Assembly (NCBI GenBank): GCA_902793405.1
Contig: CADBDH010000008.1
Location: 62,001 to 126,000 of the forward strand
Length of the DNA stretch: 64,000 bases
Direction of reading: 5' to 3'
From: an uncultured Bacteroidales bacterium
Lineage (GTDB): Bacteria; Bacteroidota; Bacteroidia; Bacteroidales; Muribaculaceae
Of this stretch, positions 43,050-64,000 are shown piece by piece. The notes under the pieces were generated by a model. That model had not been told where the DNA came from. It made no database searches and saw nothing but the letters and a program-made list of their open reading frames with translations. The first letter of the stretch is position 1. Each line of letters starts with the position of its first letter. The position numbers were made by a program, and so were the translations under genes.

Positions 43050-45938
43050 TTAGCGAACAATCTTGGTGGTCTTGGTGCTGCCATCGCTGTAGCGGGTAAC
43101 AACGATGTTCACGCCGTCGAAGGGCTTGTCGCTCTTCAGACCCTGAGCGTTGTAATAGGTGTTCACACCCTCGCCAGCAATACTGATCTCGGCTACGCCA
43201 GTCTCGATGTTGTCCCAAGGAATGAACTTCTCAACAACGTAGTACTTGAACTCGCCATCAGCCTTGGCTGCATCGGGCACCTTGTAGTAGAAGCGTACCA
43301 GGAAGCCGATGGTGGCGTTGTAGGTAGCACCGAAGGCGAGCGTGTTGGCCTCGGCATCACCAAAGGTGAACTGGGTACCGTCAACAAACTCATCAACGAT
43401 GAGCAGGTCGGCGGGACGGGGCGACCACCAGTCGTTAGCCCTCTGGCCATTTTCTACAATGATCGAGTTACGGATCTGGTTGCACTGTCTCCAAACGCGA
43501 ACCATGAAGGGCTCATACTCTACGCTGGCGTCTTCGGGCATCTGAGCGGTTACGGTGATTACAGGATTGAAGATGCTGCAAAGTTCGTCATTCTCGTCCT
43601 TCCAGTTGGTGTACTTACCCTCGCTGCGGGTACCTTTAACCGTAGCATTCAGGCCAGCAACGCCGGTCTTCATGATCTCGCTACCATAGCTGTTCAAGTT
43701 GTCAATGTGTTCGGGAGGATCGTTTTTCACACGGTCATCACCGAAGGTCCAGATCAGAGTCTGATAGGTCATGTAGTTACCAAAATCACCAGTAACGGTC
43801 AGAGGATCCTTGAAGTTGTTGGGACCAGCATTGATAATCATGCCTTCCATGCCCAGGGCATCCGACATCTCCATGAAGGTACCGTCGGTACGCAGCTGCA
43901 TCTTGGAGAACTCGGTTACGGGCAGAGCGTTGTCACCACGACCTACAGTGTAGTAGTAAATCGAGGGATTGGGCTGCAGGTTAACATCTACCGAACCGTT
44001 CTTCACACCAGCGAGGAGCTCGTGCTCGTCAGCCAGAACCTCTTCCTCGGTGTAGTAGCCACCGAGCTTGGCATTTGTCTTGAAGACGGGAACCTCTACG
44101 GTGTTGGTGCCCTTGTCTCCATTGGTGAGCATCAGCACGTATGCGTAACGTACGGGATGATCATTGAGAGCAGTGCTTGCAGCGAACTGGTCAACGAACA
44201 GGATATTGCTCATGTCGATGACACCACCAGCGCCAACGCTCAGGTTGCCGCTCGTGGTCACGTTCACATTGTAGCTGGCCAGGGGCTCCTGGTTCTGATA
44301 AGTAATGTTGTAACGGGTGTTGTTGCCTGCAGTGATGGCCATCGTGGCAACGGGAACCATGGCGTCGGGAGCAGCAACGTCATAGCGATAGAGCGTGAAG
44401 TTGTTCTCACCGGCGTTAACGCGGGCGGTGGTCAGGCCGTTAGCGGCATCGTCGTTCATCACGTTCAGGAAGTTGCGGTAGTAGTTCTTCTCGGTCTCGA
44501 TCTTGTAGTCGCTCTCATAGTGGTTGAGCTTCAAGGTCAGGAAGTCGTTCCAGCCGGGGATAACAACGTCAACCTGGTTAGACCATGCAACGAACATGTC
44601 ATGCTCGCCATCGTTGGGCTGACCAAAGACGATGTAGCTCAAGGTGTAGCTGTGCTCATCCTGAGGCACGGGATAGGTGTAAGTGGTCTCGGTCGTCGTG
44701 ATGATCTCCTCACGGGTCTCATTGCCATACTCGTCGGTAAGAACGAGGTAGAGAATGTAGTCCTGGCCTACAGTACCATGGGCCATGTCGTCGAGCGACG
44801 AGGTCCAGTCGAGAGTCACATTGTAGGTCTTCTCCTCGGCAGCGGGTTCAGCCTTGCCTTCTAGCTTGATGGTATAGATACCAACCTCGGGAGCATAATC
44901 GGGGTTGTACTGTGCATAGTCAACCTCGAAGTAGCTGTGTCTGCTACGGATCTGGTTGCCATTCAGGTCATAATAGGGATTCATCATACGACCGGCAACG
45001 TGATTGATAGCGGTCACCCATCCCCAATCATTTTTAATGGTATCATATCTCTCCCAGTACAACAGACGATAGTCGGGGATGAAGATGTTAAGGCCAGTCA
45101 GCGACCTGCTCTCGTGTCTGTTTTTACCAGCCATCGAGAAGTAGTGCTCGTTTTGGAGAACTGAAGCACAGTCGTGAACAACGGGATAAGCAGCGCCTGC
45201 TACCATCTGGAAATAGAAGTCGGTAATTTCGCTGTTCACTGAGCCGTCGGTGGGGCTGAACTCTTCAAACATGGACTTGAAGGGTACGCGCTCGCCGTAG
45301 GTTCGATTATCGTCTTCCTCTTCATCAGTCACCCACTTGGTCTTTTGGCGAGCCTGGCCCTTGCCGAGCATGAAGAAGCGGTTAAATTCACCGCTGATGT
45401 TGAAAGTGGTACCTGCACGCATTCCTTCACCGATACGCAGACCATCGGTAAGCAACTGCACCGCGTCAATGTTGTTGCCAATGTAGGTAACCAGTGCTTC
45501 GGCATTGGGGAACTCGTAGCTACCGTAATCGTCATTGGTACGCAGCGTAAGGTTTTCTTTAACAGAAACCATCAGCAGGGTGTAACCATCCTCGTAGGGC
45601 TTGATCACGTCATCAGCGCTGATGTTCCAGCCGCCGCCCACGGCGCCGTAGTCAACTTCGCGCTCACGGGTGATGCCGTCTTCTTTATAGGCGCTGTAAT
45701 GGGGACCCGGGATGTTGGGGTCGCAGTACACCTTCTTCAACAGGGCAACGATCTGATAAGGATTGGTTGCCACATCGGTGATAGCATTTTCATGCGTAGC
45801 ACCGCTAGCGTCGGTCCACTGATAGGTGATGGCATCGTAATATGCCTTGGGGTGAACCGCAGGCTGAGCTTGGGCGCTCAAGACTCCAAGCGTCATCAAC
45901 ATGGCTGCAAAAAGCCTCAAAAAGTTTTTAGTCATCAT
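43050..45938 (-). CDS. Large T9SS cargo protein of a modular family (fused form)
   Basis: A 962-residue exported protein; signal peptide about 1-24 (ending LSAQAQ). The N-terminal half (about 25-560) has landmarks shared with the 56947-59718 protein: PGPHYSAYKED, REREVDYG, QLLTDGLRIGEG, LGKGQARQK, PVVHDCASV, FFIPDRRL-like NIFIPDYRLLYWE, and NYYRNFLN. The C-terminal half resembles the end of the 52960-56943 protein: ILFVDQFA, NDHPVRYAYVL, YEPFMVRVWRQC. The last 35 residues (YYNAQGLKSDKPFDGVNIVV then TRYSDGSTKTTKIVR) form a type A T9SS C-terminal domain, which directs export and surface attachment. No enzymatic motif was recognised. Confidence 0.78.
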   Translation of the reverse strand: MMTKNFLRLFAAMLMTLGVLSAQAQPAVHPKAYYDAITYQWTDASGATHENAITDVATNPYQIVALLKKVYCDPNIPGPHYSAYKEDGITREREVDYGAVGGGWNISADDVIKPYEDGYTLLMVSVKENLTLRTNDDYGSYEFPNAEALVTYIGNNIDAVQLLTDGLRIGEGMRAGTTFNISGEFNRFFMLGKGQARQKTKWVTDEEEDDNRTYGERVPFKSMFEEFSPTDGSVNSEITDFYFQMVAGAAYPVVHDCASVLQNEHYFSMAGKNRHESRSLTGLNIFIPDYRLLYWERYDTIKNDWGWVTAINHVAGRMMNPYYDLNGNQIRSRHSYFEVDYAQYNPDYAPEVGIYTIKLEGKAEPAAEEKTYNVTLDWTSSLDDMAHGTVGQDYILYLVLTDEYGNETREEIITTTETTYTYPVPQDEHSYTLSYIVFGQPNDGEHDMFVAWSNQVDVVIPGWNDFLTLKLNHYESDYKIETEKNYYRNFLNVMNDDAANGLTTARVNAGENNFTLYRYDVAAPDAMVPVATMAITAGNNTRYNITYQNQEPLASYNVNVTTSGNLSVGAGGVIDMSNILFVDQFAASTALNDHPVRYAYVLMLTNGDKGTNTVEVPVFKTNAKLGGYYTEEEVLADEHELLAGVKNGSVDVNLQPNPSIYYYTVGRGDNALPVTEFSKMQLRTDGTFMEMSDALGMEGMIINAGPNNFKDPLTVTGDFGNYMTYQTLIWTFGDDRVKNDPPEHIDNLNSYGSEIMKTGVAGLNATVKGTRSEGKYTNWKDENDELCSIFNPVITVTAQMPEDASVEYEPFMVRVWRQCNQIRNSIIVENGQRANDWWSPRPADLLIVDEFVDGTQFTFGDAEANTLAFGATYNATIGFLVRFYYKVPDAAKADGEFKYYVVEKFIPWDNIETGVAEISIAGEGVNTYYNAQGLKSDKPFDGVNIVVTRYSDGSTKTTKIVR

Positions 45939-46160
45939 GTTTTCCTAAATATTAAAAGTTAATAATAAAAAGATTGAATTCTATAGGATTATTAAATCAA
46001 TCAATTGTATTGATGCATTACGTATATCGAAGAACATTACCTTTCGTAGAACCACGTCTTGGTATTGGATTCTTATTCAGATACCTTTACTTATCGCTTC
46101 TTTGTCGAGCGTAACGTGCTTGAATGGAAATAAAAGTCAATATTTGTAATTTATCGTTTG

Positions 46161-46192
46161 CAAAGTTAGGAATTATTAATGACATAACCAAA
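46161..46192 (-). promoter_or_regulatory. Promoter of the 43050-45938 gene
   Basis: The minus strand has TTTG at 46192-46189, a 20-base spacer and TAACTTTG at 46168-46161, the best promoter match in the window. It implies a leader of about 215 bases before the start at 45938; that leader is AT-rich with no recognised riboswitch. Confidence 0.75.
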
Positions 46193-46297
46193 GGTTTTCA
46201 GTAAAAAAAGTAAAAATTTATTAGCAAAAAATACTTGCTGGCGGAAACCTGCATACAATCGTTTTTTTTATTCGTTTTTTTGGCATCCTCGGGACCT

Positions 46298-46332
46298 AAA
46301 AAGGGGGACGCACCGTTGATGGCACGTCCCCC
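46298..46332 (-). terminator. Terminator of the subtilase operon
   Basis: GGGGGACG and CGTCCCCC form the stem, with an A-run at 46298-46302 giving the minus-strand U-tract, 72 bases past the protease stop codon. Confidence 0.82.
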
Positions 46333-46403
46333 GACATTTTTATTGGGATTCTAGTCAAAAATTGCTGGTAAACAGGCGTTAAAGCCCGTTCGTTCAACAA
46401 CTG

Positions 46404-49400
46404 TTACCTGATGACCTTGCTGGTCATGATGGAACCGTCGTTGTAGCGGGTGACAACGATGTTCACGCCATCGAACGGCTGGCTCGACTGCATGCCCAGG
46501 GTGTTGACATAGGTCACGCTCACCACCTGCCTGTCGCCAATGAGGTCGATGATGCCTGTGGGCAGGTCAAAGTAGCCCTCGGTGCCCTCTTGTGAGAATC
46601 TGAACATGGGCGTTTCATCGTTGGCGTCGCGCAGCATGTTGGCATTACTGTTCACCAGGTGATAGTAGGCGCGGACAACAATTTCGATTCTGGCGTTGCT
46701 GACGGGAGCGCCAAAAGCGTTCTGCAACCTCACGGGCGAGGTCTCGGGATCCCAATTCTCGCCGATGACCACTTGCTGAACCGACGGAACGTCTGTCAGC
46801 ACTTGTTCACCCAGCAGATAGGGGCTCTCGAGCGGCGTGGTGCCCACGATGCCGGTCGTTTCGGGATCACGGTCAAAGTTGTAGGCCCCCTCGCTGATGA
46901 GCCATACACGGAACATGTAAGGCACGCGTGTCTCACCGTCCAGGTCACTGGTGGTAATGGTGATCACTGGCGTATAGACGCAGTAGTCGGCCGTTGTGCC
47001 GTCGGGTAAGGCCTGATTCCAGTGGCCGCCCCAGCGTTTGTCACTCTTTGAACCGCCCACGTGAATGGTCATCGCGATGTCGTCGGTAGCCCTGGTGCGG
47101 CGAGCCGCGCCATAGGTGTTGTCCTGGGTGATCTTGCCATGGGCTACGGTGACGGGCACATACATGGTCACGGTCTTGGCGTTGGGGACATTGTCCTGCA
47201 CGGGCAGCCACATCTCGGTCGCGCCGCCGTCAAATGTCACGGCATCGCCTTGGGCCGTCATGTCGTTGTTGCGGGGCATGAACGTGTTGCCCTCCTCGTG
47301 GGTGGCCATGGCTACCACGGTCCACTCGTCTTCGTTATTGGCCTTGCGCTCAACATTATAGCGGGTAACGGCTTCCTCGTCTTTGACAATTACTTTCACA
47401 TAGTCGCCGCAGTTGGCTTTGAGCGCCATGTGCTCGTCATTGGCGATGTCGTTGGCCGAGTAGATGTTGTGGGCCGCCGACTCCAGGTCGCTCTTGTAAA
47501 CGGGCACCATAATCTCGTTGCTGACCAGGATGGTGTTAACGACAATGCCGTTACCGGTCACAGTCACGGTGTAGGTCTGGTCGCCGATGGTCACGGTGAA
47601 CGAGCCGTTGTGCGGTCCCTCATCGGTGGGTGAGTAGGTAACCGTCAGGTTGATACTGCCGTTGGGCAATACCTCGCCGTTGCCCGTCACGGTGAATTGG
47701 CTGGGCAGACCCGTCGTGTCGATAACAGGGGTGAAGTTCTGGTTGCCCGTGTTGGTCACGGTCACCGTCTGCGTCCTGCTCTTGCCGATGATGACATCGC
47801 TATAAGCCAACGTGTTGGGGCTAACAGTGCCGGCAGTAACAGGATCCACTTCGACCTCCCACTCAAAGGTCACCTTGGGCAGGAACTGGCGACGAGAACC
47901 ACTGCCATACCTGCCATTGTTGTTGATGCTTGTACCATAAGAGTTGAATGATGTATAACCTCCAGGATTGATGCCGTAGAAATACGTTGTGCTACTGGTT
48001 CCCGTTGATGTCACTTCAAATTCAATCACCAGGTTTCCACCATTGTACTCATATGGTTCATCGAATGTGATGACCAGTTCCGTCCCGCCACTCACGGCAA
48101 CTTGCCCGGTCTTAACCGTTGTGAGGCCAGTGATGCGGGAGTAATTGGTTTGAGGGAATGTTGTCAATGTTGTCGTGCCCATTGACACATTGAATGCTCC
48201 GCCCGAGAAGTTGATACCCGTAGAGTAGAACTTCATGGATTTCAGCTTTTTGCCCTCAATCTCTGCCAACATGGTGGCAGGATAAATCATTTGGTTGATC
48301 TGCTTATTTCTATACTGATTTCCATAGATAGGCAAATAATAATTGGTTGCGGTTCCATCGGCTATGGTCGCGTCGGTCTTGATGGCGCATGTGCCGTTGA
48401 TGGTGATGGTCACAGGGGTGGCGCCTGGGCTGGTCAGCGTGATAGTGGCATTGTGGGTGCCCTCATTATCAGGCGAGTAGGTAATCACCAGGTTGCCACC
48501 GGTGCCCAGGCTGGTCGTGTTGATGCTGTATGTGCCGGTGTTGTCGTTGAGCGTGGCGGTGATATTGCCCGTGAGCATCAAGCCGCTAACGGCCACCGTC
48601 TGCGTGTTGGTCGTGCCAGGTTCTACCTCAAAGGTCACGCTGGCAGGATTGGCATAGATGGTGGGCACGGCATAATGGTTTAAAATGTATTCGACGCCTG
48701 CCAGCGCGTTAATCTTGCCGTTGCCAAAATGGCTGGCGTTGGGTCCGTTATCGGTCCAGTAGTCATGGATGGCAGTCTCGGCCATGATTTGCTTGATCTC
48801 GCTATGGGTGAGCTGGTGGCCACATTGTGCCGCAGCCTGCATCCACAGTGCCACGATACCGGCTGCCGCGGGTGTCGCCATCGACGTTCCCTGGGCTGCG
48901 CCGTAGGGATAGTTGGCATTGTTGATCAGCGGGGTAGAGGAGCGCCCGGTGTTCAAGTGGTTGAATGCCGAAACGATGAGCTGTCCAGGGGCCGAAATCC
49001 AGGGGATATCAATACCACCAGGACTCACACTGGCGATAGCGTAGCCCGAGAACGGGCTGATGTCGCCCACTTCGTTGCCGCTTGAGCCTCCCTCGCGGGT
49101 AATATATGAACCTATCGAGATGACCTCGGGCCACATGGAGTTATCACTCGCACTGCAGTCATCAGTGCCCTGCAGCCAGTTGTGACCGCTGGTGGTCAAA
49201 GAGTTATTGAAATAGGCAATGGTACCGCCCCACATGTCCACGATGCAGCTGCCGCTCGTGGGGTACACCTCAACGGCGAGCGTGTAATTACTGTGATAAT
49301 AATTATCTTCGTAGTCATAGCTTTTCGATTTAAGGGCGTTTGCGTTTAAGCGTATTTGCCTTTTGCCGGTTACGGAGTTTGAACCAACATAAATCGTTAA

Positions 49401-50753
49401 TGTGCCTTCATAATAATCGCTCAAGCCAGATACTGTGGTTGTGACTGAGGGCGTGTAGCTCACGCTCTTGAGCACTTCGCCTGTATAGCAGTCGAGCACA
49501 TAGATGGTAATACCCAGCTGGGTCGTCGAGCGTCCCCACGCATCAAGCACATAACCGTTATAACAATATCCGCCGTCGGCATTGCTGTATCGTTCATATC
49601 GCAGAATGGAACCGACAGGGTTGTTCATGCTCGAGGTGCCGCTTACAAAGAGTCCGCCGCCCTCGCCGGGGATGGCATTGCCGGCCCTGTTCGAGGCCGC
49701 AAAGAGGCAGACCCTGTTGGGGTGGCTGTCACCAAAATTATTGTGGATGAAGGTTTCCATGGTGCTACCCAAGTGGCCGTCGCGGGGACCGGTGGTAGTA
49801 CTCCAGCTGTTGCTTACCACAAGGGGTTTCCCCTGAGCGTTGGCATAATCAATCGCCTGCTGATAGGCCGTGGCCATGTGCACGTTGTTTAGCCCATAGA
49901 AGCCTCCCAGGTACAGGTCGGCGCCAGGAGCCATACCGCCATAGGTGGCATTGGCGTGGTCGTCGGTAACAGTGATGTTAGTGCCGTTGACAATGACGCT
50001 CGAGCCGCCGGCAATCGAGCTGGTGTGCGTGCCGTGGTCCGAGTCCGAAGAGTCGGTAGTGGGCAACGAGCCGCTGCCGGTCCAGTTGGCGGTGACCGAT
50101 GAGCCGTTGTAGCAATAAGCACCCTTGATGCGGGAGTTGCCGTTCTTGTCCTTGAAGGCGATGTGCTGGAAGTCGATGCCGCTGTCCATGATGGCGAGAA
50201 TCACATCTTTACCGTCATATATCTGCTGCAAACCAGCCAGTTGCGCGTCTTGTGACAGCGTCAGCAAGTCGTCCACATTGCTGGCCTGGCGGGACAGGTT
50301 GGTTTCCTCTTGCATGAGTTCGCCCACCTCGACGAGGATTACACCCTCGATAGCGGCAACCTCTTCAATCATGTCGATGGGGATGTAGGTGGTCAACAAT
50401 CCGTCGCCCAGGTTGGCCAGGATGTCAACCCCCAAGTTCTCAAGGTCGGCGATGAATTCATCACCGGTCACTTGGATGAAGGACGTGATATATACCTTGC
50501 CGTTGATGGTGTCGGGCTTGGCGATGGGGCGCTTGTTGCGTGCCTCGGGCAAGGGAATCAAGTCAGGCTGTCCTGCCTTGATGGTGGGCGTGGGCTCGTC
50601 AAAGCTGATGCGGCCTGCCATCTCGTCCAGGAACATCAGGGTCGAGATAGACATTTTCTCGGCATTAGGAATGCTTTGCGCCAGCGCTGTCAGGCCGATG
50701 GCCATAAAGCCGAGCAACAGCGCGAAACGTATTTTGTTCACTATCGTTTTCAT
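46404..50753 (-). CDS. Subtilisin-like (S8) protease with T9SS C-terminal domain
   Basis: A 1449-residue exported serine protease. Signal peptide 1-26 (ending LTALAQ); a propeptide-like region about 60-150 (KVYITSFIQVTGDEFIADL). The catalytic Asp is D190 (VILAIMDSGIDFQH), His is H240 (SDSDHGTHTSS) and Ser is about S624 (GTSMATPAAAG), with N355 (FAASNRAGN) at the oxyanion position. A beta-rich insert of about 200 residues lies between N355 and S624. Two ASH/HYDIN-like beta domains follow (VTFEVEPGTTNTQTVAVSG, YSPTDEGPHNGSFTVTIG). The last 300 residues match the family module of the neighbouring cargo, ending QPFDGVNIVVTRYNDG and TSKVIR. It starts 14 bases after a signal-less partner gene. Confidence 0.92.
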   Translation of the reverse strand: MKTIVNKIRFALLLGFMAIGLTALAQSIPNAEKMSISTLMFLDEMAGRISFDEPTPTIKAGQPDLIPLPEARNKRPIAKPDTINGKVYITSFIQVTGDEFIADLENLGVDILANLGDGLLTTYIPIDMIEEVAAIEGVILVEVGELMQEETNLSRQASNVDDLLTLSQDAQLAGLQQIYDGKDVILAIMDSGIDFQHIAFKDKNGNSRIKGAYCYNGSSVTANWTGSGSLPTTDSSDSDHGTHTSSIAGGSSVIVNGTNITVTDDHANATYGGMAPGADLYLGGFYGLNNVHMATAYQQAIDYANAQGKPLVVSNSWSTTTGPRDGHLGSTMETFIHNNFGDSHPNRVCLFAASNRAGNAIPGEGGGLFVSGTSSMNNPVGSILRYERYSNADGGYCYNGYVLDAWGRSTTQLGITIYVLDCYTGEVLKSVSYTPSVTTTVSGLSDYYEGTLTIYVGSNSVTGKRQIRLNANALKSKSYDYEDNYYHSNYTLAVEVYPTSGSCIVDMWGGTIAYFNNSLTTSGHNWLQGTDDCSASDNSMWPEVISIGSYITREGGSSGNEVGDISPFSGYAIASVSPGGIDIPWISAPGQLIVSAFNHLNTGRSSTPLINNANYPYGAAQGTSMATPAAAGIVALWMQAAAQCGHQLTHSEIKQIMAETAIHDYWTDNGPNASHFGNGKINALAGVEYILNHYAVPTIYANPASVTFEVEPGTTNTQTVAVSGLMLTGNITATLNDNTGTYSINTTSLGTGGNLVITYSPDNEGTHNATITLTSPGATPVTITINGTCAIKTDATIADGTATNYYLPIYGNQYRNKQINQMIYPATMLAEIEGKKLKSMKFYSTGINFSGGAFNVSMGTTTLTTFPQTNYSRITGLTTVKTGQVAVSGGTELVITFDEPYEYNGGNLVIEFEVTSTGTSSTTYFYGINPGGYTSFNSYGTSINNNGRYGSGSRRQFLPKVTFEWEVEVDPVTAGTVSPNTLAYSDVIIGKSRTQTVTVTNTGNQNFTPVIDTTGLPSQFTVTGNGEVLPNGSINLTVTYSPTDEGPHNGSFTVTIGDQTYTVTVTGNGIVVNTILVSNEIMVPVYKSDLESAAHNIYSANDIANDEHMALKANCGDYVKVIVKDEEAVTRYNVERKANNEDEWTVVAMATHEEGNTFMPRNNDMTAQGDAVTFDGGATEMWLPVQDNVPNAKTVTMYVPVTVAHGKITQDNTYGAARRTRATDDIAMTIHVGGSKSDKRWGGHWNQALPDGTTADYCVYTPVITITTSDLDGETRVPYMFRVWLISEGAYNFDRDPETTGIVGTTPLESPYLLGEQVLTDVPSVQQVVIGENWDPETSPVRLQNAFGAPVSNARIEIVVRAYYHLVNSNANMLRDANDETPMFRFSQEGTEGYFDLPTGIIDLIGDRQVVSVTYVNTLGMQSSQPFDGVNIVVTRYNDGSIMTSKVIR

Positions 50754-50767
50754 ATCTTGATGGTGTT

Positions 50768-52309
50768 TTAGTCGTTAATTCTGATCATGCTGTTTGACTC
50801 GGTTTTGCTCTCCCCAACGGGTTCCATCATAGTCTTGCCGTCGATGCCCTTGAACTGGTCACTTTGGGACTCGGTGATATCGTGGTGGGGGGCTCCCGTG
50901 GGGGCGCCGTTGCCGCTGCTGATGACAATCTTGGTGAAGTCGATCGAGAAGGTGGTAGCGATGCCCCTGAACTCGATGGCGCCGCCAGCGGTAACGGGAA
51001 TCGTCCACGTGTAGGTTTCTCCGGCACTGAAATTGTGCAACACGCCATTGACGTACATCTCGCCGGCACCGTCGCTACCCGTGCTCGAGGTCATGGTCAC
51101 ATTCACGCTCTTGCCCATAAAGTAGGCAGGCATCATGTAAACGATCCTGCCGTAGGCGGTCATGTAGGCACACTGGCCGGCCGAGGGCGAATAGACGTTG
51201 GTATTGTAGAAATTCCAGTTGTTTTCGCCGACAAAGGCTGCAGCGCTCGGGGTGGCCGAGGTGGCGGCGGCAAAATCGGCGCTGGCATAGTAGTCCGTGC
51301 CCGCCGCGCTGCCGGCAGGAATCTCGATATTGGCATTGAAGTCGGCCTTGTAATTATAGTAACCCGGGTGGTCGTTGTTGGCCGTGCTCTCGGCGAAGGT
51401 GTCACTCACCTGCAACTCGTCCAGGTCAATCAGGTCATTGACCGTGTAGGTGCGGGGCTGCACGTCGAGCGGGCTCTCGTCACTCCATCCATCGTCACCC
51501 ATCTGGCTGGCGGTGGGTGTCACCGTCATCAGGGGAATGTAGGAATCAGGCATAAGGCGGAAGCCGATTTGAGTGATATCGGGCGACTGATTAAGATAGT
51601 AGGAGCCATTCTGTTGGATGCCACCATAGATCGAGATGGTCTGACCGCTGCTCACATTGTAGAAAGTCTTGACAATGTATGAACCACCCGCGCTTACTTC
51701 TGAGCTGACATACCATCCCTCACCATTGAGGTTGGTGCCGAAGTAACCGCCTCGCACATTCGTGCCCACATAGACGATGAGCTGCACCGTGGCATTACTG
51801 TAGCCCTCGGGGATGGTGTAGGTGAGGCCTCCTTGAGCGGCGATATAGGCCGACCCGTTGGTCTGCCAGATCAGGCCATTGGACGTGGTTCCCCAGTTGG
51901 CGGGCAACATGCTGGCGGTGATAGTCGTCTCGCTCGAGGGAGCGTTTGTGAAACTCAGCGCACTGATGTACTTAGGCTCGGGAATGCTGTCTTTGGCCGA
52001 GAGGTTCAGGCGGACGGCAGGGCTGAATTCGCTGTCGTTCTCGCTCTGGCGGTAGATGGTGACAAGGTTGTCACCCTGGTTGAGCATGCCGGCGGTAATA
52101 GGGTAGTCCTTGTTGAGCTGATAGAAGCCCAGGACGTTCTCATACTCATTGCGCTCGGCATCGCTGACAAAGGTGCTCTTGTTGTCAACCAGCCTGAGCC
52201 CGATGCGTTGAGCCGCTGGCGAGGTTCCGGCAGGCGCTTGAGCCCACGCGCCATTCCAGCCCACTGCCAGCAGCAGGCTGCACACGATGGTAGTCATTAA
52301 TTGTTTCAT
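50768..52309 (-). CDS. Secreted partner protein without T9SS signal, upstream of the subtilase
   Basis: A 513-residue exported protein (signal peptide ending GAWAQ, about residue 24). It contains beta-sandwich modules: around ALSFTNAPSSETTITASMLP (about 115-240) with GGLTYTIPEGYSNATV, and around GRIVYMMPAYFMGKSVNVTM with MYVNGVLHNF (about 375-450). A middle segment (LDELQVSDTFAESTANNDHP, about 297-316) matches the ILFVDQF...NDHP motif of the large T9SS proteins. The C-terminus is charged and polar (GESKTESNSMIRIND) with no T9SS domain. It lies 14 bases upstream of the protease gene, so the two are co-translated. It may bind or shield the protease (inference). Confidence 0.72.
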   Translation of the reverse strand: MKQLMTTIVCSLLLAVGWNGAWAQAPAGTSPAAQRIGLRLVDNKSTFVSDAERNEYENVLGFYQLNKDYPITAGMLNQGDNLVTIYRQSENDSEFSPAVRLNLSAKDSIPEPKYISALSFTNAPSSETTITASMLPANWGTTSNGLIWQTNGSAYIAAQGGLTYTIPEGYSNATVQLIVYVGTNVRGGYFGTNLNGEGWYVSSEVSAGGSYIVKTFYNVSSGQTISIYGGIQQNGSYYLNQSPDITQIGFRLMPDSYIPLMTVTPTASQMGDDGWSDESPLDVQPRTYTVNDLIDLDELQVSDTFAESTANNDHPGYYNYKADFNANIEIPAGSAAGTDYYASADFAAATSATPSAAAFVGENNWNFYNTNVYSPSAGQCAYMTAYGRIVYMMPAYFMGKSVNVTMTSSTGSDGAGEMYVNGVLHNFSAGETYTWTIPVTAGGAIEFRGIATTFSIDFTKIVISSGNGAPTGAPHHDITESQSDQFKGIDGKTMMEPVGESKTESNSMIRIND

Positions 52310-55900: not shown

Positions 55901-56943
55901 AGGTAGAACTCATGCCAATTGCCTCCATCTCCAGTGTAACCACCATTCAGCTCAACATAATTGGGAGTCGTCGAGCCGGTAGGAGGTATGGTCCATGTGA
56001 AATCTTGGAACGAAGGATTCTCGTTTGTAACGGTTTTCTCTGTTCCATTTACAGTGATTCCTAAGTTTTGAGTGCCGTATCCAGCATCAACGCCAGCATT
56101 GATGACAACTGTGAGATCGCCACTATAGCCTCTATCATTGAACAAGCTTGAGGGAATGGTAATAATACCACCACCACTAGAGCTGCCATAGGTCATGAAA
56201 TAACTGCCATCGTTGTTGCTTGCAAAGTGGCTAGTACTTGTCCATACCCAACTAGAGGGAGTTGTGGTCTCATCGGTGGCTCCTACCCATTGTGTAACCA
56301 CAGTAGAGCCGCTATATACAATAATTGACTTGAAACCGACATAACCATTATTGGCTTCAATGACGATGTCACCGTAAGAGTCAACTGAAGCTGCACCGGC
56401 TATGTTGGGCAGGTTCCAGGTATGAATATTGTCCATATCGAAACTTGATGCAGTGCGGGGATAGGCAATGAAGTCACTCACCTTATGGATGCGTGAAGTG
56501 TTGCCACCCAGTGCAAGGCGGAAGCCGACAATCTCATCACCCACATAGTTGATGAACTCGTCTCGTGTCAATTCGGTTGTAACAGTAATCCATTGGGGAT
56601 CGGGATAAGCTGAATGGTAACCCATGGCTGTGCTACCCACGTTGTCTCCCTCAAAGGGACCAACGGTATATTCATCGGCGTTGATCTTGAGCGGGGCGCG
56701 CCATGCACCGGCTGCCGATGAGGCAGCATCGGTGTTGCTTGCTGCCTGCAGGATGCTCGACATGCCATTGATGCCCGAGAGCAACTCGTTCATCGTCGGA
56801 ATCTGGGCCTTGGTCTTTGCGACTGTTGTCGTTTGGGTCGGGTGCACACCACTCTTGTTAAAAGCCTTGGATTCCACAACTTGCGCATTAAGCGACAGTG
56901 AGAGCAGCGAGATGGCTGCCAGAATCATATATATCTTTTTCAT
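52960..56943 (-). CDS. Very large T9SS cargo protein with Ig-like repeats
   Basis: A 1327-residue exported protein; signal peptide 1-21 (ending LSLNAQ). The N-terminal half has two copies of a beta-sandwich module (GGIITIPSSLF with ITVNGTEKTV; GGTITIPASML with LSVNGASQTL). Residues about 560-830 are Ig-like beta-repeats rich in Thr/Ala (TDVTVTATATDPTAEVTLTI, NMVITATGNGTVTLEADGQS, TYTITVTGTGEVSVYIDD). The C-terminal half carries the family module (LMFVDRFSV, NSHPFMYKYTL, YEPYMFRIFVKSDNNKLRPY, GPICVWSGYI). It ends with the T9SS domain (MTSNKPFDGINIVVNRYSDG then VTKVITK). It starts three bases after the 56947-59718 gene. Confidence 0.8.
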   Translation of the reverse strand: MKKIYMILAAISLLSLSLNAQVVESKAFNKSGVHPTQTTTVAKTKAQIPTMNELLSGINGMSSILQAASNTDAASSAAGAWRAPLKINADEYTVGPFEGDNVGSTAMGYHSAYPDPQWITVTTELTRDEFINYVGDEIVGFRLALGGNTSRIHKVSDFIAYPRTASSFDMDNIHTWNLPNIAGAASVDSYGDIVIEANNGYVGFKSIIVYSGSTVVTQWVGATDETTTPSSWVWTSTSHFASNNDGSYFMTYGSSSGGGIITIPSSLFNDRGYSGDLTVVINAGVDAGYGTQNLGITVNGTEKTVTNENPSFQDFTWTIPPTGSTTPNYVELNGGYTGDGGNWHEFYLPEPIVFNVASDVEALRMGYTVLQYPTNEETYYRFPIGLNDQSTGHNHYVFRYGPETSTSTGELTGWYASSGSYAVPNGWSARNGSGTVTSFSDNDDGSMWLSGGGTITIPASMLNGNSTVQVIINAAKYSGSNRTLSVNGASQTLSSTTFSDFTWNNVDATNGITISLGDSYVSIMSISIVGQVTTTTYVQQWYTADYSERGDLTVQLIFKSQIPKTEKPTITVGDPTATDVTVTATATDPTAEVTLTIGDRTETGIGSVSITIDRGTADQNLTATATAQEDGKRVSDEATAPVYVPALPITATPVITYEVVGNNMVITATGNGTVTLEADGQSASGDGSAQIIIPLGNDERTVTATATAIEPNHQRSATATETINIPEFGRSPMPNITMTNNGDGTYTITVTGTGEVSVYIDDAEHGGTAGDPIATGNGSVSFTVEEHSREMTITVQATNQEGDLAVSRTAEETYTIPAMNMSGYTLLDPQPENASTPIDMSKLMFVDRFSVDIPEDNSHPFMYKYTLKETQVRQRSSNDVEVYVEKTGSKGQGFYTLKQIDDDKDAKLTMDVENAAMDFNLSELSSPFFYTVEREEEADGERYWGWNAILQRTSIGNYRQTLKYDAKGNLVYNYNDSVAPGPHVQLDLDTITGDYNDYKAYVPVVWTMGFDRVNYDENNPTHNSYGASVWTTGVADVAMSSSEAPKAERQTNSWNSVNWTAEGGPASLYILDNVVATATMPTVNTLDYEPYMFRIFVKSDNNKLRPYTVVPAGDGPYDGEHLDAGEGTTKGPICVWSGYINDPKNNQPKKLTTEDGEIDNPDYNGVEITEGTGDGGAVTYTFKKMKVDRPAGYDENGKPLGPWDQDDVNAMFGALDELAYMSSISLADLEVFVRFYYIVKGTGEGHTPWIPTRANAEGDPAGYGTQSPGKAPDPATGVIEIANHGEIVETMYYNMQGMTSNKPFDGINIVVNRYSDGAISVTKVITK

Positions 56944-56946
56944 CGC

Positions 56947-59718
56947 TTACTGGTTGTTTAAGAGTTGATTAATAATGTTTACAAGCTCCGTGTTGTCGAA
57001 GTTGGGAGCATGATAATTCTCATGGTCGTCGACATAGGAAATCTTGTAACGAACCTTACCCTGCTCGTCCACAGCAAACTTGAGCTTAGCGACAGCTTCA
57101 TTAACCTGTACGCCATCTACAGTGTAAGAGCGGTAGAGCATGAACGAGTCATAACCGCCCAGGATGCTCTCTGCCGAGATACCGTTAACGATGTCATTCT
57201 CGGGCTGCAGGTAGTTGCGGTAGTAGTTCTTCTCGTCATAAGTTCCATTTTCGGCGTTGTAGTCTTCATCGCCTACTTCCCTGATCTCGAAGTCGCTCTC
57301 GTAGTGGTGCAACTTGAGAATCATAAAGTCGTCATAGCCCGGGATAATCAACTTGACCTCGTTACTCCAAGCGATAAACTCGGGATGGTCGCTATCGACG
57401 GGAGATCCCTCGATGATGTAGGTCAGGGTGTAGCTGTGGGCCTGCTGCTGATAGAGCGTGTCAAGCTGCAGATGGGGACGGAAGTCGGTGCAGTTCTTGA
57501 CGGTGTCGATGGCAACTCTCCTGCGGATGCCAGTCTCTGGGTCGGTAACTACTTGATAGATGATATATGTCTGCTCAACGGCAGAGCCAGCCATCTCGTT
57601 GAGTGATGACCTCCAATAGAGATCCACATTATAATATCTGTTGTCAGGCTCACTGTAGTCGCTCACCTTGTTGGCCTCACCCTGCAATGTGAGCAGGTAG
57701 ATACCAGTCACGGGAGCATGGTGAGCTGTATCGTACTGTGCGTACCATACTGCAAGATTACTGGCTGACTTGTGGAAGGTGGAAGGATCATTTGATTTGT
57801 TGGCACTCGCTGGCTGATAGGGGTTCATATCGCGACCATCAACAGTGTAGACTACGGGTTGACCATTTTCTTTGATGGTGTCAGTCAGCTCCCAGTACTG
57901 AAGGCGACGGTCGGGGATAAAGAAGTTCATACCCGGCATTGCATAAGCAGTCGTACCATCGTGACCCGACATCGAGAACTCGTGCTGATTCTGGATAACC
58001 GAGAGGCAGTCATGAACTACAGGGAATACTTGACCCTTCATCATCTTGCTGTAGAAGTCCTTTACGTCGTCACCTTTCTTACCACCAGTGGGGCTGAACT
58101 GCTCAAACATCTGACGGAACGGAACGGACTCGCCTAGCAGATGCTCTTTATAAACTTGCATATTGTGGACTATGTCGGATTTTTGGCGAGCCTGTCCCTT
58201 ACCCAGGAAGAAGAAGCGGTTGTAATCGCTCTCACCAGGGCAGTTAAATACGGTACCTACGTTCTCACCTTCACCGATACGCAGACCGTCGGTCAACAGT
58301 TGGATGGACCTGACGTTCTTCGAGAAGTATTGGATAATCTCTTCCTTGGTGCTATAGAGGCTAGCATCAAATTCATCATCATCCTCCTCAAGTTGCAAGT
58401 TGTTTTTGAGCTTTACTACTAGTGCAGTATAGCCTTCCTCGTTTGGCTTGTAGGTGTCAGCTTCATACATCACAGGAGCAACACGACCCTTTGCGTCGAT
58501 GGTCCAAGTATAATTTACATTAGAGTTGGTTGTGAAAGTCTTTTCTTCACCATTGACAATCAATGAGGAATTGTCGCCGTTGGCTGCTCGTGCATTTATA
58601 GTTACGGTAACTGTGTTGTATCCATCAAATAGGTAGCCGTCTAATATAATGGGGTCATTTTCATGTAATGCGAGAGCAACATAATTTCCAGAGCTGCCCC
58701 AGTTGCCCCACTGCATATAATGCATGCCAACGGGCCAATGGCCAGTGCTGGTTTCAGCCGCCGTACCATCGTTGGCATAGCTCCAACTGAAGAGCGTCGT
58801 GCTGCCTGATGTTACGGTGATTGAGTAAATCATTGCATTTGTATTATTTCCGCCGACACTAATGTCACCTATGGCCAGGGTGCCGCCAGTGACGATGGTT
58901 CTGGTAACACGCTTGTACAGCTGAGGGTAGGCGACATTATAGGAGGTCGTTCCATAGTAGCGGAAGCGGTTGTCGCTAGTATTATAACGCAAGTAACGTG
59001 TAGTCGTACCCTTAATCGATACAGTACCATTGGTTATCTGGATGGTGTTATACAGATTAGTGCTTACCGTTGTGCTGGTTGAGATACCGTTCGAGTTGGT
59101 GCTACGGCCCATGTAGTAGCCGCTTGCACTTTGAATGGTGTAATTGTTATTACCAACAGACGTGATGGTGAATGTTGCAGCATCGATTGTCGCATTGGAA
59201 GCAATTGTGCCGTCGTTAATGGTGACATTGATGTAGTTGCTTGTAGCATCAAGATTTGTCAGACTACCGTTCATGATGCGATTGCCACCCTCATACACGA
59301 TGAGGTATTTTTCACCACTAGTCAGTTCGCTTATTGAGTTGATCTTAACATACTCCACAACGGTTGTTGTCGTCGTGGGTGGGGCAGGAAGAGCAGTGCC
59401 GGGGATTTCCCAGCCGCCGTCCATACCGCCGTAATAGACCTCACGCTCACGATTGCCGTTCTTGTCATAAGCACTGTAGTAGGGGCCAGGGAAGCGCTTG
59501 TCCATGTAGATCCAGCGCAACAACCCATACATCTGGTAGGGGTCAGTGACCTCGTCGATGTACTTACCCGTCTGAGTGTTGCCACCGGCATCCTCCCACG
59601 TGTAAGTCCAGTCTTTAATGTCTTCGGCCTTGTACGTTGCCGATTGGGCGAAGACATTACTGGTCCAGCCCACCGCTAGCAGCAGGCCGAACAACAAAGT
59701 TGTTAGTTTCATTTTCAT
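56947..59718 (-). CDS. Large secreted protein without T9SS signal (N-terminal half of the family)
   Basis: A 923-residue exported protein (signal peptide ending SNVFAQ, about residue 25). Residues 26-105 and 430-920 match the N-terminal half of the 43050-45938 protein: PGPYYSAYDKNG, REREVYYGGMDGGWEI, QLLTDGLRIGEG, LGKGQARQKS, PVVHDCLSV, NFFIPDRRLQYWE, KNYYRNYLQ. A block of about 300 residues is inserted after GGWEIPG: a trefoil-like part (SGEKYLIVYEGGNRIMNGS) and one beta-sandwich module with LIVNGEEKTF. The protein stops at INQLLNNQ with no T9SS domain; the next gene, three bases on, begins with its own signal peptide and carries the matching C-terminal half. Confidence 0.78.
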   Translation of the reverse strand: MKMKLTTLLFGLLLAVGWTSNVFAQSATYKAEDIKDWTYTWEDAGGNTQTGKYIDEVTDPYQMYGLLRWIYMDKRFPGPYYSAYDKNGNREREVYYGGMDGGWEIPGTALPAPPTTTTTVVEYVKINSISELTSGEKYLIVYEGGNRIMNGSLTNLDATSNYINVTINDGTIASNATIDAATFTITSVGNNNYTIQSASGYYMGRSTNSNGISTSTTVSTNLYNTIQITNGTVSIKGTTTRYLRYNTSDNRFRYYGTTSYNVAYPQLYKRVTRTIVTGGTLAIGDISVGGNNTNAMIYSITVTSGSTTLFSWSYANDGTAAETSTGHWPVGMHYMQWGNWGSSGNYVALALHENDPIILDGYLFDGYNTVTVTINARAANGDNSSLIVNGEEKTFTTNSNVNYTWTIDAKGRVAPVMYEADTYKPNEEGYTALVVKLKNNLQLEEDDDEFDASLYSTKEEIIQYFSKNVRSIQLLTDGLRIGEGENVGTVFNCPGESDYNRFFFLGKGQARQKSDIVHNMQVYKEHLLGESVPFRQMFEQFSPTGGKKGDDVKDFYSKMMKGQVFPVVHDCLSVIQNQHEFSMSGHDGTTAYAMPGMNFFIPDRRLQYWELTDTIKENGQPVVYTVDGRDMNPYQPASANKSNDPSTFHKSASNLAVWYAQYDTAHHAPVTGIYLLTLQGEANKVSDYSEPDNRYYNVDLYWRSSLNEMAGSAVEQTYIIYQVVTDPETGIRRRVAIDTVKNCTDFRPHLQLDTLYQQQAHSYTLTYIIEGSPVDSDHPEFIAWSNEVKLIIPGYDDFMILKLHHYESDFEIREVGDEDYNAENGTYDEKNYYRNYLQPENDIVNGISAESILGGYDSFMLYRSYTVDGVQVNEAVAKLKFAVDEQGKVRYKISYVDDHENYHAPNFDNTELVNIINQLLNNQ

Positions 59719-60178: not shown

Positions 60179-60260
60179 TAGCGAACGAATTGAGTATCAG
60201 TAGTTTGTTTTCATCGAACTCACATCCCATCCATCCCGTCGAGCCATCTCGGGTGGGAAT

Positions 60261-60300
60261 AAAAAAACCAGGGGACGCGCTGTCAACAGCGACCCCCTGG
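60261..60300 (-). terminator. Terminator-like hairpin in a duplicated 3' flank (copy 2)
   Basis: CCAGGGG...CCCCTGG encloses CGCTGTCAACAGCG, with seven A at 60261-60267. It is the counterpart of 52746-52784; similarity continues to about 60362 (CTCAT, AACTGTGGT, ATTACTATGAAACAATTACT). Confidence 0.8.
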
Positions 60301-60465
60301 CTCATAATCCTCATTTTCTAACTGTGGTTATGAAAAATTACTATGAAACAATTACTATTTAACTTTTAAAAAATGAATAATCGTTTTGATGTCCAGTCTC
60401 TCGTTCCCAGTCCCCGGTTGGAGGTTGCCCGCGCAACCAGGGACCAAGAACCGATGACTGTTCGA

Positions 60466-63400
60466 TTAGCGGATGACCTTGCTGATCGAGGTAGCACCAT
60501 CGCTGTAGCGGGTAACAACGATGTTCACACCGTCGAACGGCTGGTCACTCTCCATACCCTGGATATTGTAGTAGGTCTGACCTACAACCTCACCATGGTA
60601 AGCAATCTCCTTCACGGCAGTAACGACACCACCTGCTGCACTACCGTCCGACTCAGCGCCGTTACCAGAGCGGCTGCCTTCGGAACGTGTCCAAATGGTG
60701 TGGTCAGCAGCCTCGCCCTTCACGCTGAAGTAGAAGCGAACGAAGATTCTCAGGTCTTCCTCGGGGATGTCCTTGTAGATGGGCTTGCCTTGAGCGTCAT
60801 AGCCGGTGATTTGGAGCAGATCATCGAGTGCACCAAAGATGGCATTGTTCTCATCCTTATCCCATTCACCAAGCGGATCGGCATCAGAACCACCAGTCCT
60901 ATCCACTTTATTCTTGGTATAGGTGTAGGGGCCATCGGCGCCGATACGGTCAACAGTAACACCGTTCTCGGGATCATTGATGATCTCACCGTCGCTGTTG
61001 CGCTTGATGTAGCCGCTCCATACGCAGATGGGACCGTTGGTTGAGCCTTCACCAGCAGTGATGACATCATTGCCATTGTCGTCTTTCACAAACGTGTAGG
61101 GACGCAACTTGCCGTTGTCACTTTCAACGAATACGCGGAACATGTAAGGTTCAAACTCAACCTTGGTCAAGTTCTTGGGAGGCAGATAACCGAGAGCATT
61201 GATGTTGTCAAGCATGTACAGGTTAGAGCCCACATTATTAGCATCCTTCCAGCTGGTGTTCCAACCCTCCTGGAACTCAACAATCGGTTTATACTCCTTA
61301 GCGTCGGGATCATCAGGATTAAGACCCATCTGAGCCTTACCGACGGCAGTCTTCCAGATGGGACCACCATAGGTGTTGTCCTTACCGTCAAGCTCGAAGT
61401 AGCGACGCTGGATACCCCATGTCGATACCGAGGGAGCGTAGCTTACATACTTCTTTTCATTACCATATTCACCGATAATAGGCTCATCGGTGCTGTTGAA
61501 GTAGTGATGCTCGCCACTGTTAACCACATGGTCAAACTCAGGTGAGCCCTCCAACATCTCACGATAGGTGAAGTCTTCCTGGCGGTGGAGCTGGCTCAGG
61601 TAATCCTCACCCAGTTCGGGAGCGCGGTCCTTTGCACCCTGCAGGTAGTAGTAGTTAAGCATGTCGTTGGTGCTCGTCAGGTTATATTCCACGTCTGCAG
61701 TGAGGACGTCCATAGCCAGGCCACGGTCGGTATCGCGGTCAATCTGGCCCAGGGTGTAATAACCCATTACCTCACAGTCGGTCTTCTGGATGTTAACCCT
61801 GACTTTACCACTCTCCTTGTTGTCGCCGCTTTCGGGCTCATACCTCAGGATATAGCCATAAGCATCGGGATGGCTATTGTCTTCCTTAATTTCCTCCTTG
61901 AGTTGGTCGGCGAACAGTACGTGCAGACGCAGCAGACCACCTTCTACACCAGGCGTGGGAGGCACGTCACCAGAAGGATCGCCATAGACCCTAATGGATT
62001 TAATGTTCTCCCAACCGCTATTGGGCTTAATTGTTATTCCATTGGTAGCATCCACATTTGACCATTCATAGGTGTTGAATTTAATGGCAGAATTGCTTCC
62101 ATCAACATTGTTGACAGATACATTCAACGAATTAGAACCAGTGTAAGAAATCTCAGTTCCGTACATGACAACTACCTTGATATTCTCATAGTTCTCAACA
62201 ACGTTTGCAGGAATTGTGATATAGCCTTCAGGATTAATATAGATGCTGTTACCGTTGTCACCCCAACCCAGAGGAGTAGCAGTAGTAGCGTCACCACCCG
62301 TTATTGTCCAACCCGTGGGCATGGTCGTTCCATCTACATTATAATCCCAATCGTCAATCAGATTGTCATACGCAGGAGTCTCTTCGGTTTCCCAAGTCAC
62401 CTCAATGGAATTGATGTAAACAGCACCACTATTTGAGCGAATACCAAAATACTGATAATCATCAGTAAAGGTAATAGTGCCGTCATTACTCAGCGAACCA
62501 ATTTTGGTGCCTCGAGTTGAATTTGAATAAAGATCAGCAGCGCTTGAATAAGCTGTGTTCTTGCCATACACATCAATGGTGTTGGTGCCACCAGCGACAT
62601 CAATCTTAATGCTCTTGATCTTTCCACCAGATGTGGTGGAAACAATTCCGCTGCTATTACTGTTCCTCATCTGAATACTGTTTCCATAAGTGGAATTGCT
62701 TCTTGCAGTATTTCCGGCAATGATAGCGCCACTATTAAGAGTTTTATTTGTGAAACCAGTATATTGAGTGGTCGTAGCTCCTAAGTAGGAGGATGTGAAA
62801 ATGTCCGTAATCTCAATCGGCAAGTTGATGCTGGTTGCGCGTCTGGGCGCTGCATTGGGCGACAGGGGATTGTCGCCGGTGGGCCAGGTGTAGGTGGTTC
62901 CGCCAGCAGTGGCGTTGATGTCCTTAGAGGCATCGTTGACACTGATGCGGTTCACGTTACCAGCCTCACCAAAGGCCTCAATCACTACCGTTGCGTTAGG
63001 ATAGGTCTTCAGCACACCGGGGATGTACAGGTAGCCACCGCCCTCCATGTAGCAAACCTTCTCGTTGCCCGTCGAAGTGGTGTAAGGCAAGAACTTCGAA
63101 CCGGGTGAAACATCCCACTTATAGGGAGTAGTGGGCAGGTTGGGATTCTGGGTGGCCACGTTGGCACTCGAGGCGTTCCAGCTGGTGATGGTGGTGTTAC
63201 CGTTCTTGACGGTGATGGACTTGAGGTTCACCGTGTAACGGTTCGGCCAGATGACGATGTCACCATTGCCCTTAACACGCACCCAACCACTGGTGGGAAT
63301 ATCCAGATTCTCGTGCGTGTAAGCATTGTTTACCGTATATGTCTGATTATTCTCCTTATACGTGAGGGTGTAGTTCTCAACCTCCTGGTTCTCATAGACA

Positions 63401-64000
63401 ACGTTGAAGTGTACCTGATCGGCAGTTGCCTGGTCGAAGGTGATGGTAGCCACCTTGGTCTCGGTAGTGGGGTTACCTTGAGCGTCAGGCAGGAAGCGGT
63501 ACAGGTTGAACTTGTCCATCTTCTCCAGCGGAGTGGAGGGATCAGCCTCATTATAGCCGGTGATCTTGGAAATGGTCAGACCGTTGTAGATGTCCTCGTT
63601 AACCATTGCCAGGAAGTTGCGGTAGAAGTTCACACGATTGCCCTCAAACTCGGGGTCAAAGTCACTCTCGTGGTGGTCGAGCTTCAGGCCGACAAAGTCG
63701 TTCCAACCGGGGATGACCACGCTGGCACGGTTACTCGTTGCATGGAATCCGGGGCCCTCTTGAGCCACGCCATCAACCTGATATTCGAGGGTGTAGCTGT
63801 GCTCGTTCTGAGGCACTTTATAAACCACCTGGGTAATAACGAAGGGGTTGTTGCTGTAGTCACCGGTCAGTTCGTTGCCGTCGATGTCATAGAATTTAAC
63901 GCTCTCGGGCTCAAGCAGGCTGCGGTTGCCGTTCTCGTCCACGAGATAGACGGTGTAAATCTGGGGCACGGTGTGGCCCGACATCTGGTCAAGTGAGGAA
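60466..64000 (-). CDS. Very large T9SS cargo protein (5' end outside window)
   Basis: At least 1177 residues; the frame is open through the right edge (SSLDQMSGHTV...), so an internal Met at 63984 is not the start. Early landmarks match the family N-terminal half: QNEHSYTLEYQVDG, VIPGWNDFVGLKLDHHESDF, NFYRNFLAMVNEDIYNGL. An insert of about 450 residues follows with two to three beta-sandwich modules (GGYLYIPGVLK with ISVNDASKDI; EGYITIPANVV with NIKSIRVYG). The C-terminal half (LHVLFADQL, DNSHPDAYGYIL, EPYMFRVFVESDNGKLRPY, GPICVWSGYI) ends in the T9SS domain (ESDQPFDGVNIVVTRYSDG then ISKVIR). It is thus a third arrangement, fused and insert-bearing. Confidence 0.8.
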   Translation of the reverse strand, partial: SSLDQMSGHTVPQIYTVYLVDENGNRSLLEPESVKFYDIDGNELTGDYSNNPFVITQVVYKVPQNEHSYTLEYQVDGVAQEGPGFHATSNRASVVIPGWNDFVGLKLDHHESDFDPEFEGNRVNFYRNFLAMVNEDIYNGLTISKITGYNEADPSTPLEKMDKFNLYRFLPDAQGNPTTETKVATITFDQATADQVHFNVVYENQEVENYTLTYKENNQTYTVNNAYTHENLDIPTSGWVRVKGNGDIVIWPNRYTVNLKSITVKNGNTTITSWNASSANVATQNPNLPTTPYKWDVSPGSKFLPYTTSTGNEKVCYMEGGGYLYIPGVLKTYPNATVVIEAFGEAGNVNRISVNDASKDINATAGGTTYTWPTGDNPLSPNAAPRRATSINLPIEITDIFTSSYLGATTTQYTGFTNKTLNSGAIIAGNTARSNSTYGNSIQMRNSNSSGIVSTTSGGKIKSIKIDVAGGTNTIDVYGKNTAYSSAADLYSNSTRGTKIGSLSNDGTITFTDDYQYFGIRSNSGAVYINSIEVTWETEETPAYDNLIDDWDYNVDGTTMPTGWTITGGDATTATPLGWGDNGNSIYINPEGYITIPANVVENYENIKVVVMYGTEISYTGSNSLNVSVNNVDGSNSAIKFNTYEWSNVDATNGITIKPNSGWENIKSIRVYGDPSGDVPPTPGVEGGLLRLHVLFADQLKEEIKEDNSHPDAYGYILRYEPESGDNKESGKVRVNIQKTDCEVMGYYTLGQIDRDTDRGLAMDVLTADVEYNLTSTNDMLNYYYLQGAKDRAPELGEDYLSQLHRQEDFTYREMLEGSPEFDHVVNSGEHHYFNSTDEPIIGEYGNEKKYVSYAPSVSTWGIQRRYFELDGKDNTYGGPIWKTAVGKAQMGLNPDDPDAKEYKPIVEFQEGWNTSWKDANNVGSNLYMLDNINALGYLPPKNLTKVEFEPYMFRVFVESDNGKLRPYTFVKDDNGNDVITAGEGSTNGPICVWSGYIKRNSDGEIINDPENGVTVDRIGADGPYTYTKNKVDRTGGSDADPLGEWDKDENNAIFGALDDLLQITGYDAQGKPIYKDIPEEDLRIFVRFYFSVKGEAADHTIWTRSEGSRSGNGAESDGSAAGGVVTAVKEIAYHGEVVGQTYYNIQGMESDQPFDGVNIVVTRYSDGATSISKVIR

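Follow-up and report, generated by a model that had tools for sequence, protein, structure and literature searches.

A lineage-restricted family of modular proteins with a probable T9SS sorting tail, encoded in a single gene or divided between two neighbors

The results presented here reveal a paralogous family of large proteins, found in gut and rumen bacteria and matching no named family, that occurs in fused and split forms. The family is lineage-restricted and modular, with a constant core of N0, N1, N2, N3 and C followed by a C-terminal tail, and its genes form a variable array between conserved flanking genes. In every split that was scored, the tail is absent from the upstream chain and present on the downstream chain. 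The reading favored here, which falls somewhat short of an even chance, is that these are modular T9SS surface proteins whose constant core may be made as a single chain or as a two-chain complex with the tail on one chain. The window is the whole stretch of DNA that was analyzed, 64,000 nucleotides in length. A sequence-only reading of the region from 43050 to 64000 was right about the split between the N- and C-halves, but it overlooked a second split (genes 50768 and 46404), the presence of the tail only on the downstream chain and the setting in a variable array; the family proved wider than first stated.

A core shared by fused and split genes

The region contains six genes (43050, 46404, 50768, 52960, 56947 and 60466), all on the minus strand, as are all features whose coordinates are given below. 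The compact fused member (43050..45938, 962 aa) has a signal-peptide-like start followed by N0, N1, N2, N3, C and the tail, without insertions of the J module, a unit of approximately 120 aa that is inserted in larger members. Domain borders on this protein were taken from profile HMMs built in this analysis: N1 spans residues 113-292 (45063..45602), N2 341-454 (FN3-like by eye), N3 458-549 and the C-half 578-962 (43053..44207), with a sorting-tail-like stretch at its end. The upstream chain of the split form (56947..59718, 923 aa) has a signal-peptide-like start, N0, an extra domain, a J module between N0 and N1 (residues 284-408; 58495..58869), N1, N2 and N3, and no tail. Its downstream neighbor (52960..56943, 1,327 aa) has its own signal-peptide-like start, a head made of two J modules (55987..56373 and 55426..55725) and Ig-like repeats, the C-half and a tail. 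The giant fused member lies partly inside the window (60466..63999), with two J modules in that part. Sequence past the window edge (G000:C8) reveals one open frame of 1,862 aa (1,846 aa from a later ATG) with three J modules and both halves, as had been supposed from the visible part.

The claim that three loci have two halves in common was confirmed by pairwise BLASTP. Alignment of the 43050 protein with the 56947 and 52960 proteins, as the sequence-only reading had suggested, matched both halves and established that 43050 carries the two in one gene. Residues 110-547 of 43050 match residues 421-895 of 56947 (43% identity, 1e-106), and residues 24-106 match residues 24-105 (46%). The C-half of 43050 matches 52960 (4e-25 and 2e-15) and 60466 (3e-15 and 4e-15), and 52960 matches 60466 with 40% identity over 513 columns (1e-85).

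When 247 genomes of the same GTDB family were searched with the N-half, 29 proved to carry such genes, and 22 of these genomes are among the 26 same-genus genomes listed. In a sample of 393 genomes from the order, N0-N1 was matched at E<=1e-5 in only two, the genome studied and one other. The relatives with names are records of metagenome-assembled Muribaculaceae, Bacteroidales, Prevotellaceae or Porphyromonadaceae, and for some of them the isolate name points to a ruminant source. After removal of duplicates, the loci examined contain 52 fused genes, 16 split N|C pairs, nine C-only genes and two N-only genes, which supports the earlier proposal of a paralogous family in fused and split forms. 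The 5' end of five of the nine C-only rows is cut by the end of a contig or stretch, and both N-only rows come from other genera, one being cut by a contig end. Loci L030, L034 and L037 were dropped before counting as lying on the same contigs as L073, L074 and L076, the window-edge part of 60466 was replaced by L009, and L141 and L163, on the same contigs as L027 and L031, respectively, were each counted once. Because the near-identical loci L079/L080 and L156/L157/L158 were retained, the locus counts represent non-independent events, and named and unnamed loci may overlap further.

The C-terminal tail was described with a 46-residue profile built from nine proteins of the genome studied, which has 34 matches at E<=0.01 in that genome. 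Of the complete fused genes, 50 of 51 finish with the tail, as do all 14 complete split C genes and seven of nine C-only genes (the C counts leave out two split C genes cut by contig ends), but it is found on none of the 16 split N genes. The genome studied also encodes the two T9SS components that were scored, SprA (2,616 bits) and GldL (206 bits). Among complete proteins with a tail match, 69 of 72 have a lysine within the last eight residues, in agreement with the lysine that PMC10994853, PMC11285876 and PMC10202324 describe as conserved at the C-terminal end of type A CTDs. The family proteins had been credited with a T9SS domain. As far as the Pfam and NCBIfam models are concerned this did not hold, with no match to PF18962 or TIGR04183 for whole proteins at E<=0.1 or for the nine tails at E<=10; what stands is a tail that recurs at 34 places in the genome. 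SprA occurs in 144 of 149 family genomes and the tail at E<=1e-6 in 59 of 149, too little contrast for a comparison, and one tail-positive genome (G063) has no SprA match. Judged from its sequence and recurrence, the tail is probably a T9SS sorting tail with a predicted function in export, and the family proteins are probably surface-exposed.

The variable parts of the proteins lie outside the core domains. The 50 J matches counted come from N- or C-bearing genes other than the 50768-type upstream ones; every one of them precedes N1, follows N3 or belongs to a C-gene head, and N1-N3 and C contain none. J and the other variable modules of the fused and N|C forms occupy the N0-N1 linker, the N3-C linker or the head of the C gene. 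In 50768-type proteins with a second J match, the second J follows C position 28. J has no convincing match in Pfam or PDB.

Three places at which the core is cut

The first cut lies between N3 and C. Genes 56947 and 52960 had been described as two genes three bases apart, each with its own signal peptide, and this description holds: the junction TAAGCGATGAAAAAG (56935..56949) consists of the TAA stop of the N gene, GCG and the ATG of the C gene, and both proteins have hydrophobic, signal-peptide-like starts by eye. The 16 N|C pairs occur in 14 loci, in all cases with N first, both genes on the same strand and a gap of 3, 6 or 14 bases. The junction reads TAAGCGATG in the window and in the eight other pairs listed, and all 16 downstream split proteins begin close to MKKIYMILAAxxLLTLSLNAQ. 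The pattern TAAGCGATGAARAAR has a single match in the genome studied, at 56935-56949. Across 41 genomes of the genus it has 23 matches in 17 genomes, of which 16 are at family junctions (overlapping the 16 counted N|C pairs) and seven elsewhere; the motif is thus only partly a family-specific mark.

The proposal that fused and split forms divide at the same boundary is correct at the level of domains, but not beyond it, given that 331-896 aa (signal peptide included) precede the C-half in the downstream genes and that some upstream genes have an extra module at their end, after N3. The repeats in the head of 52960 (beyond residue 600) were matched in all 13 other split C genes searched, and the single match from fused genes stops at residue 629; elsewhere in the head, above all in the J modules, matches to fused genes do occur. 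The split is therefore more than a bare stop codon, since the downstream genes have a head of their own with repeats mainly common to split C genes.

A stop followed by a start three bases later could also reflect gene decay or an error of assembly or sequencing, and one relative (L025) does have a truncated N-half beside transposase-like frames. However, the arrangement recurs in pair after pair with open frames and with a downstream gene that has its own start and long head. An assembly error at 56941-56949, which the sequence-only reading had named as a possible refutation, is excluded because the same junction recurs in other assemblies, and error or decay in general is hardly credible.

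The second cut lies after C position ~28. Gene 46404 (46404..50753, 1,449 aa) encodes a subtilase (S8; PF00082, E 6e-25) with a choice-of-anchor D (Ig-like) domain (Pfam/NCBIfam). Its sequence contains DSGID, HGTH and GTSMA, which are presumably the catalytic Asp, His and Ser motifs of an S8 subtilase, and it matches the Peptidase_S8 domain. By profile HMM, its residues 1061-1449 correspond to C-half positions 23-408 plus the tail. The gene upstream, 14 bases away, encodes a tail-less partner (50768..52309, 513 aa) composed of an N3-like domain, a J module, C-half positions 2-28 (residues 299-325; 51335..51415) and another J module. Relatives of 50768 occur in 22 of 101 genomes of the genus, the genome studied included. 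The window and fetched stretches contain 23 upstream genes of this type (L162, a partial match in another kind of protein, was excluded), and 22 of them adjoin a partner at gaps of -4 to 33 bases; the one that does not lies approximately 215 bases from a contig end. In all 22 partners the C-half starts at HMM position 22-33 and ends at 405-408 and a tail is present, and 16 of the 22 have a subtilase match. No tail match was obtained for any of the 23 upstream proteins.

The two pieces of the C-half in this second type are complementary in extent. The first C-half positions were found in 23 of 23 upstream proteins by alignment and in 13 of 23 by HMM. Nevertheless, the stretch that follows in these proteins is a conserved DANIxLP, at the place taken in fused proteins by SNxVxVPVxKT, the next strand, and in L145 the upstream C match extends to position 46 and overlaps the piece held by the partner. 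The 50768-type proteins may therefore complete a domain of their own, which counts against a two-chain core. Clean donor-strand exchange between 50768 and 46404 is not claimed, in view of the substitute stretch in the upstream proteins.

A third cut, near positions 337-376, was seen at one locus only (L163). The upstream gene encodes C positions 1-376 and the downstream gene, three bases away, positions 337-407 plus the tail, again with a MKKIYMILAA start. The two pieces overlap by 40 positions, which counts against the favored reading.

Possible partnership of the two chains in a variable array

The upstream and downstream chains appear to have diverged together. Distances among split N-halves correlate with those among their own C-halves (r 0.87, 14 pairs) nearly as in fused genes (r 0.89, 52 genes). 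For the nine pairs (eight loci) with a compact gene at the same locus, split N correlates with its own C at r 0.90, and in the same-locus control with the compact C at 0.67 and the compact N at 0.48. This co-divergence supports a lasting partnership of N and C, although linkage of adjacent genes alone could give much of it. The N and C trees agree incompletely: L079/L080 take different positions in the two, a departure from the pairing pattern.

It is possible that the split halves are instead two independent proteins that merely form a transcription unit, the tail-less chain being periplasmic or leaving by another route. The upstream chains do have a signal-peptide-like start and no tail, C-halves also follow other heads such as S8, one gene with a C-half ends in what looks by eye like a dockerin, and the partial disagreement of the trees is what independent proteins could produce. 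In PMC9936825, peptidases of F. columnare without identifiable CTDs are treated beside CTD-bearing ones; tail-less proteins may leave by other means, which counts against co-export. However, the examined loci of the genus include no solitary complete N-half, the two N-only rows being from other genera. Moreover, the C-half begins at position 22-33 in every one of the 22 second-type partners, and co-divergence exceeds the same-locus control. Independence of the two chains is accordingly considered unlikely, though it deserves weight.

The favored reading, of one core made in one or two chains, would operate as follows. Some genes encode the whole core, whereas others, lying side by side, divide it between two polypeptides. 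Of such a pair, the first polypeptide has a signal-peptide-like start and lacks a sorting tail; the second combines a start of its own with the tail and with a head of another kind, built of repeats or a subtilase. Most likely the two would associate in the periplasm to reconstitute the core. For 50768/46404 this would mean that the opening strands of the C-half, missing from the downstream protein, come from its upstream neighbor. The chain with the tail would bring the other along through the T9SS translocon and anchor it at the surface; there, a ligand may be bound by J modules and acted on by the head, such as a protease. According to PMC11285876, T9SS cargo must have a CTD. The proposal that T9SS exports a two-chain cargo, the tail-less chain being carried by its tail-bearing neighbor and both completing one beta-sandwich core that is cut at three places with the tail always on the second chain, is more tentative, and perhaps one chance in a few may be given to it. 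In a limited literature search, no report of a natural two-chain T9SS cargo with a single tail was found. The family offers a natural test of whether T9SS moves a two-part cargo with a tail only on the second of two chains. If the proposal is true, it supplies a natural fused and split series of one protein with which to test whether T9SS cargo crosses the outer membrane as a complex.

The history of the N|C split appears complex. On the N-half tree the split form requires three state changes (also on a quick 70-row tree), and a single split clade, that is, one inherited fission, was rejected (AU p 1.46e-5, 44 rows). On the C tree the split label requires seven changes, three of them forced by well-supported branches. 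Three fissions are possible, as is one fission with later re-fusion or recombination. Recombination or re-fusion is implied, since a single fission is rejected while the junction sequence is common, and the common junction would favor recombination of one original junction.

Family genes sit between an S41-peptidase gene and a relative of 40220 in the window, taken with the neighboring stretch L009, and in the eight other loci where both flanks were seen (L024, L026, L028, L036, L078, L079, L083 and L084). Gene 40220 (40220..42757) has CHB_HEX and dockerin matches in Pfam; its BLAST relatives adjoin a compact fused gene in 14 other loci, and shared repeats may explain part of these matches. 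Where fetched, a DUF3316 gene lies beyond the S41-peptidase gene, and RNase HII and polyprenyl synthetase genes, a DNA polymerase I gene, or all three lie beyond the 40220 relative. A compact fused gene is present in all nine flanked loci. It stands alone in L028, L036 and L078, is accompanied by a split pair in L024, L026, L079 and L083 and by two split pairs in L084, and in the window by a giant fused gene, a split pair and the 50768/46404 pair.

Varying family content between conserved flanks, the confinement of all 50 counted J modules to linkers or heads, and split N-halves that do not form one clade despite a common junction sequence would each be expected if the array were a recombination-driven diversity locus. 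Heads, modules and halves would then be shuffled among paralogues in the service of adhesion, or of immune or phage evasion, and the splits would be by-products. Split pairs nevertheless keep their adjacency, their order and the tail on the second chain beyond what free shuffling would lead one to expect, and this explanation seems rather doubtful as a whole. It can hold alongside the two-chain explanation.

The N1 domain and comparison with known systems

AlphaFold modeled residues 26-962 of 43050 as a single chain, from 73 aligned sequences, with a pLDDT of 92.1 and a pTM of 0.84, the latter suggesting a fairly rigid arrangement; the N0-N1 part alone reached 93.8 and 0.92. Eleven columns are invariant in all 69 rows of the N0-N1 alignment (which omits one near-identical row, the L080 split N), among them Lys193, Glu225, His255, Cys257, His265 and Arg291 of N1. 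The N0-N1 model has no Foldseek match at E<=0.001 in PDB (best 0.16) or in the viral library. Searched against Pfam at E<=1, the 69 N0-N1 rows gave a best single-row E of 0.0023, and no family matched more than six rows. On the basis of the model, N1 seems to have a fold not yet solved, in which several polar residues are invariant.

It has to be considered that N1 is an enzyme, acting through its invariant Cys, two His, Glu, Lys and Arg, and that the remainder is only a carrier. The six polar residues are kept in all 69 rows, whose identity to the first row is 27-78%, and one homologue from another GTDB family retains KG, E, HxC, H and R, all six residues by eye. However, no fold or family match connects N1 to any enzyme, and any such activity is regarded as improbable.

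The halves have no family match in Pfam, NCBIfam or PHROGs, and none at E<=0.1 among PDB sequences, where the C-half has only weak matches at E 0.18 and above. PADLOC returned only a generic subtilase match, to 46404. Seven window proteins were scanned, and the only dockerin match among them was in the flanking gene 40220; the family proteins had none. Separately, a C-only gene on contig 42 ends, by eye, in a dockerin-like stretch.

An attempt to name the whole 43050 model by its fold returned only generic Ig/FN3 strings (best Foldseek E 1.6e-9; TM-score relative to the query 0.08-0.14 among the 50 matches listed). Such strings, as in large adhesins and alpha-2-macroglobulin-like proteins, are locally similar to the Ig-like chain of the model, but this is generic beta-sandwich similarity and the architecture is not common to both. 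The family resembles T9SS type A cargo (PF18962/TIGR04183) in its signal-peptide-like start, its multi-domain chain, a short C-terminal tail that is common to many proteins of the genome with a lysine near its end, and the presence of SprA and GldL. It differs in that the tail matches neither curated model and in that the split forms include one chain without any tail, as opposed to the CTD requirement given in PMC11285876. Finally, 46404 resembles surface-anchored S8 subtilases with Ig-like repeats in having PF00082 and a choice-of-anchor D (Ig-like) domain. Unlike these, its C-terminal part is the family C-half minus the first positions, a piece of which lies in 50768.

The two split types

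In the window, the split forms of the family are a pair of N and C chains and a second split, in which the tail-less gene 50768 is partnered by the subtilase gene 46404 (46404-50753, - strand). At locus L154, the downstream partner of a 50768-type gene (8602-11895) gives no subtilase match, and its signal-peptide-like start closely resembles that of the split C genes. The L154 gene is a possible connection between the two kinds of split.

Within subtilase gene 46404, ARAGORN predicted an antisense tRNA-His (48423-48512, + strand). It was not recovered by an Rfam scan of the window, and the call is probably false.

Relatives outside the window

When N0-N1 was searched in 393 genomes drawn from the order Bacteroidales (E<=1e-5), the sole match besides the window's own genome was L136, from genome G583 of a different family of the same order; one in-frame TAG was counted within the match.

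At L025 (2-1877), a C-half gene is preceded by a truncated N-half of 149 aa consisting of N3 alone, and frames judged by eye to be IS3-type transposase-like adjoin these genes. On contig 42 of the window's own genome (L010, 6154-7803), N3 and C form one gene of 549 aa, and the tail of its product is replaced by an end that appears by eye to be dockerin-like.

Junction and extra domain of the split pair

The 15-base junction (56935-56949) is also found in two genomes (L120 and L123) upstream of an unrelated gene whose product starts MKKLTTLFITMLMG. The extra domain of the split N chain 56947 (58909-59403, - strand) resembles a stretch on contig 29 of the window's own genome and has a weak fascin-like match, under the curated cut-off.
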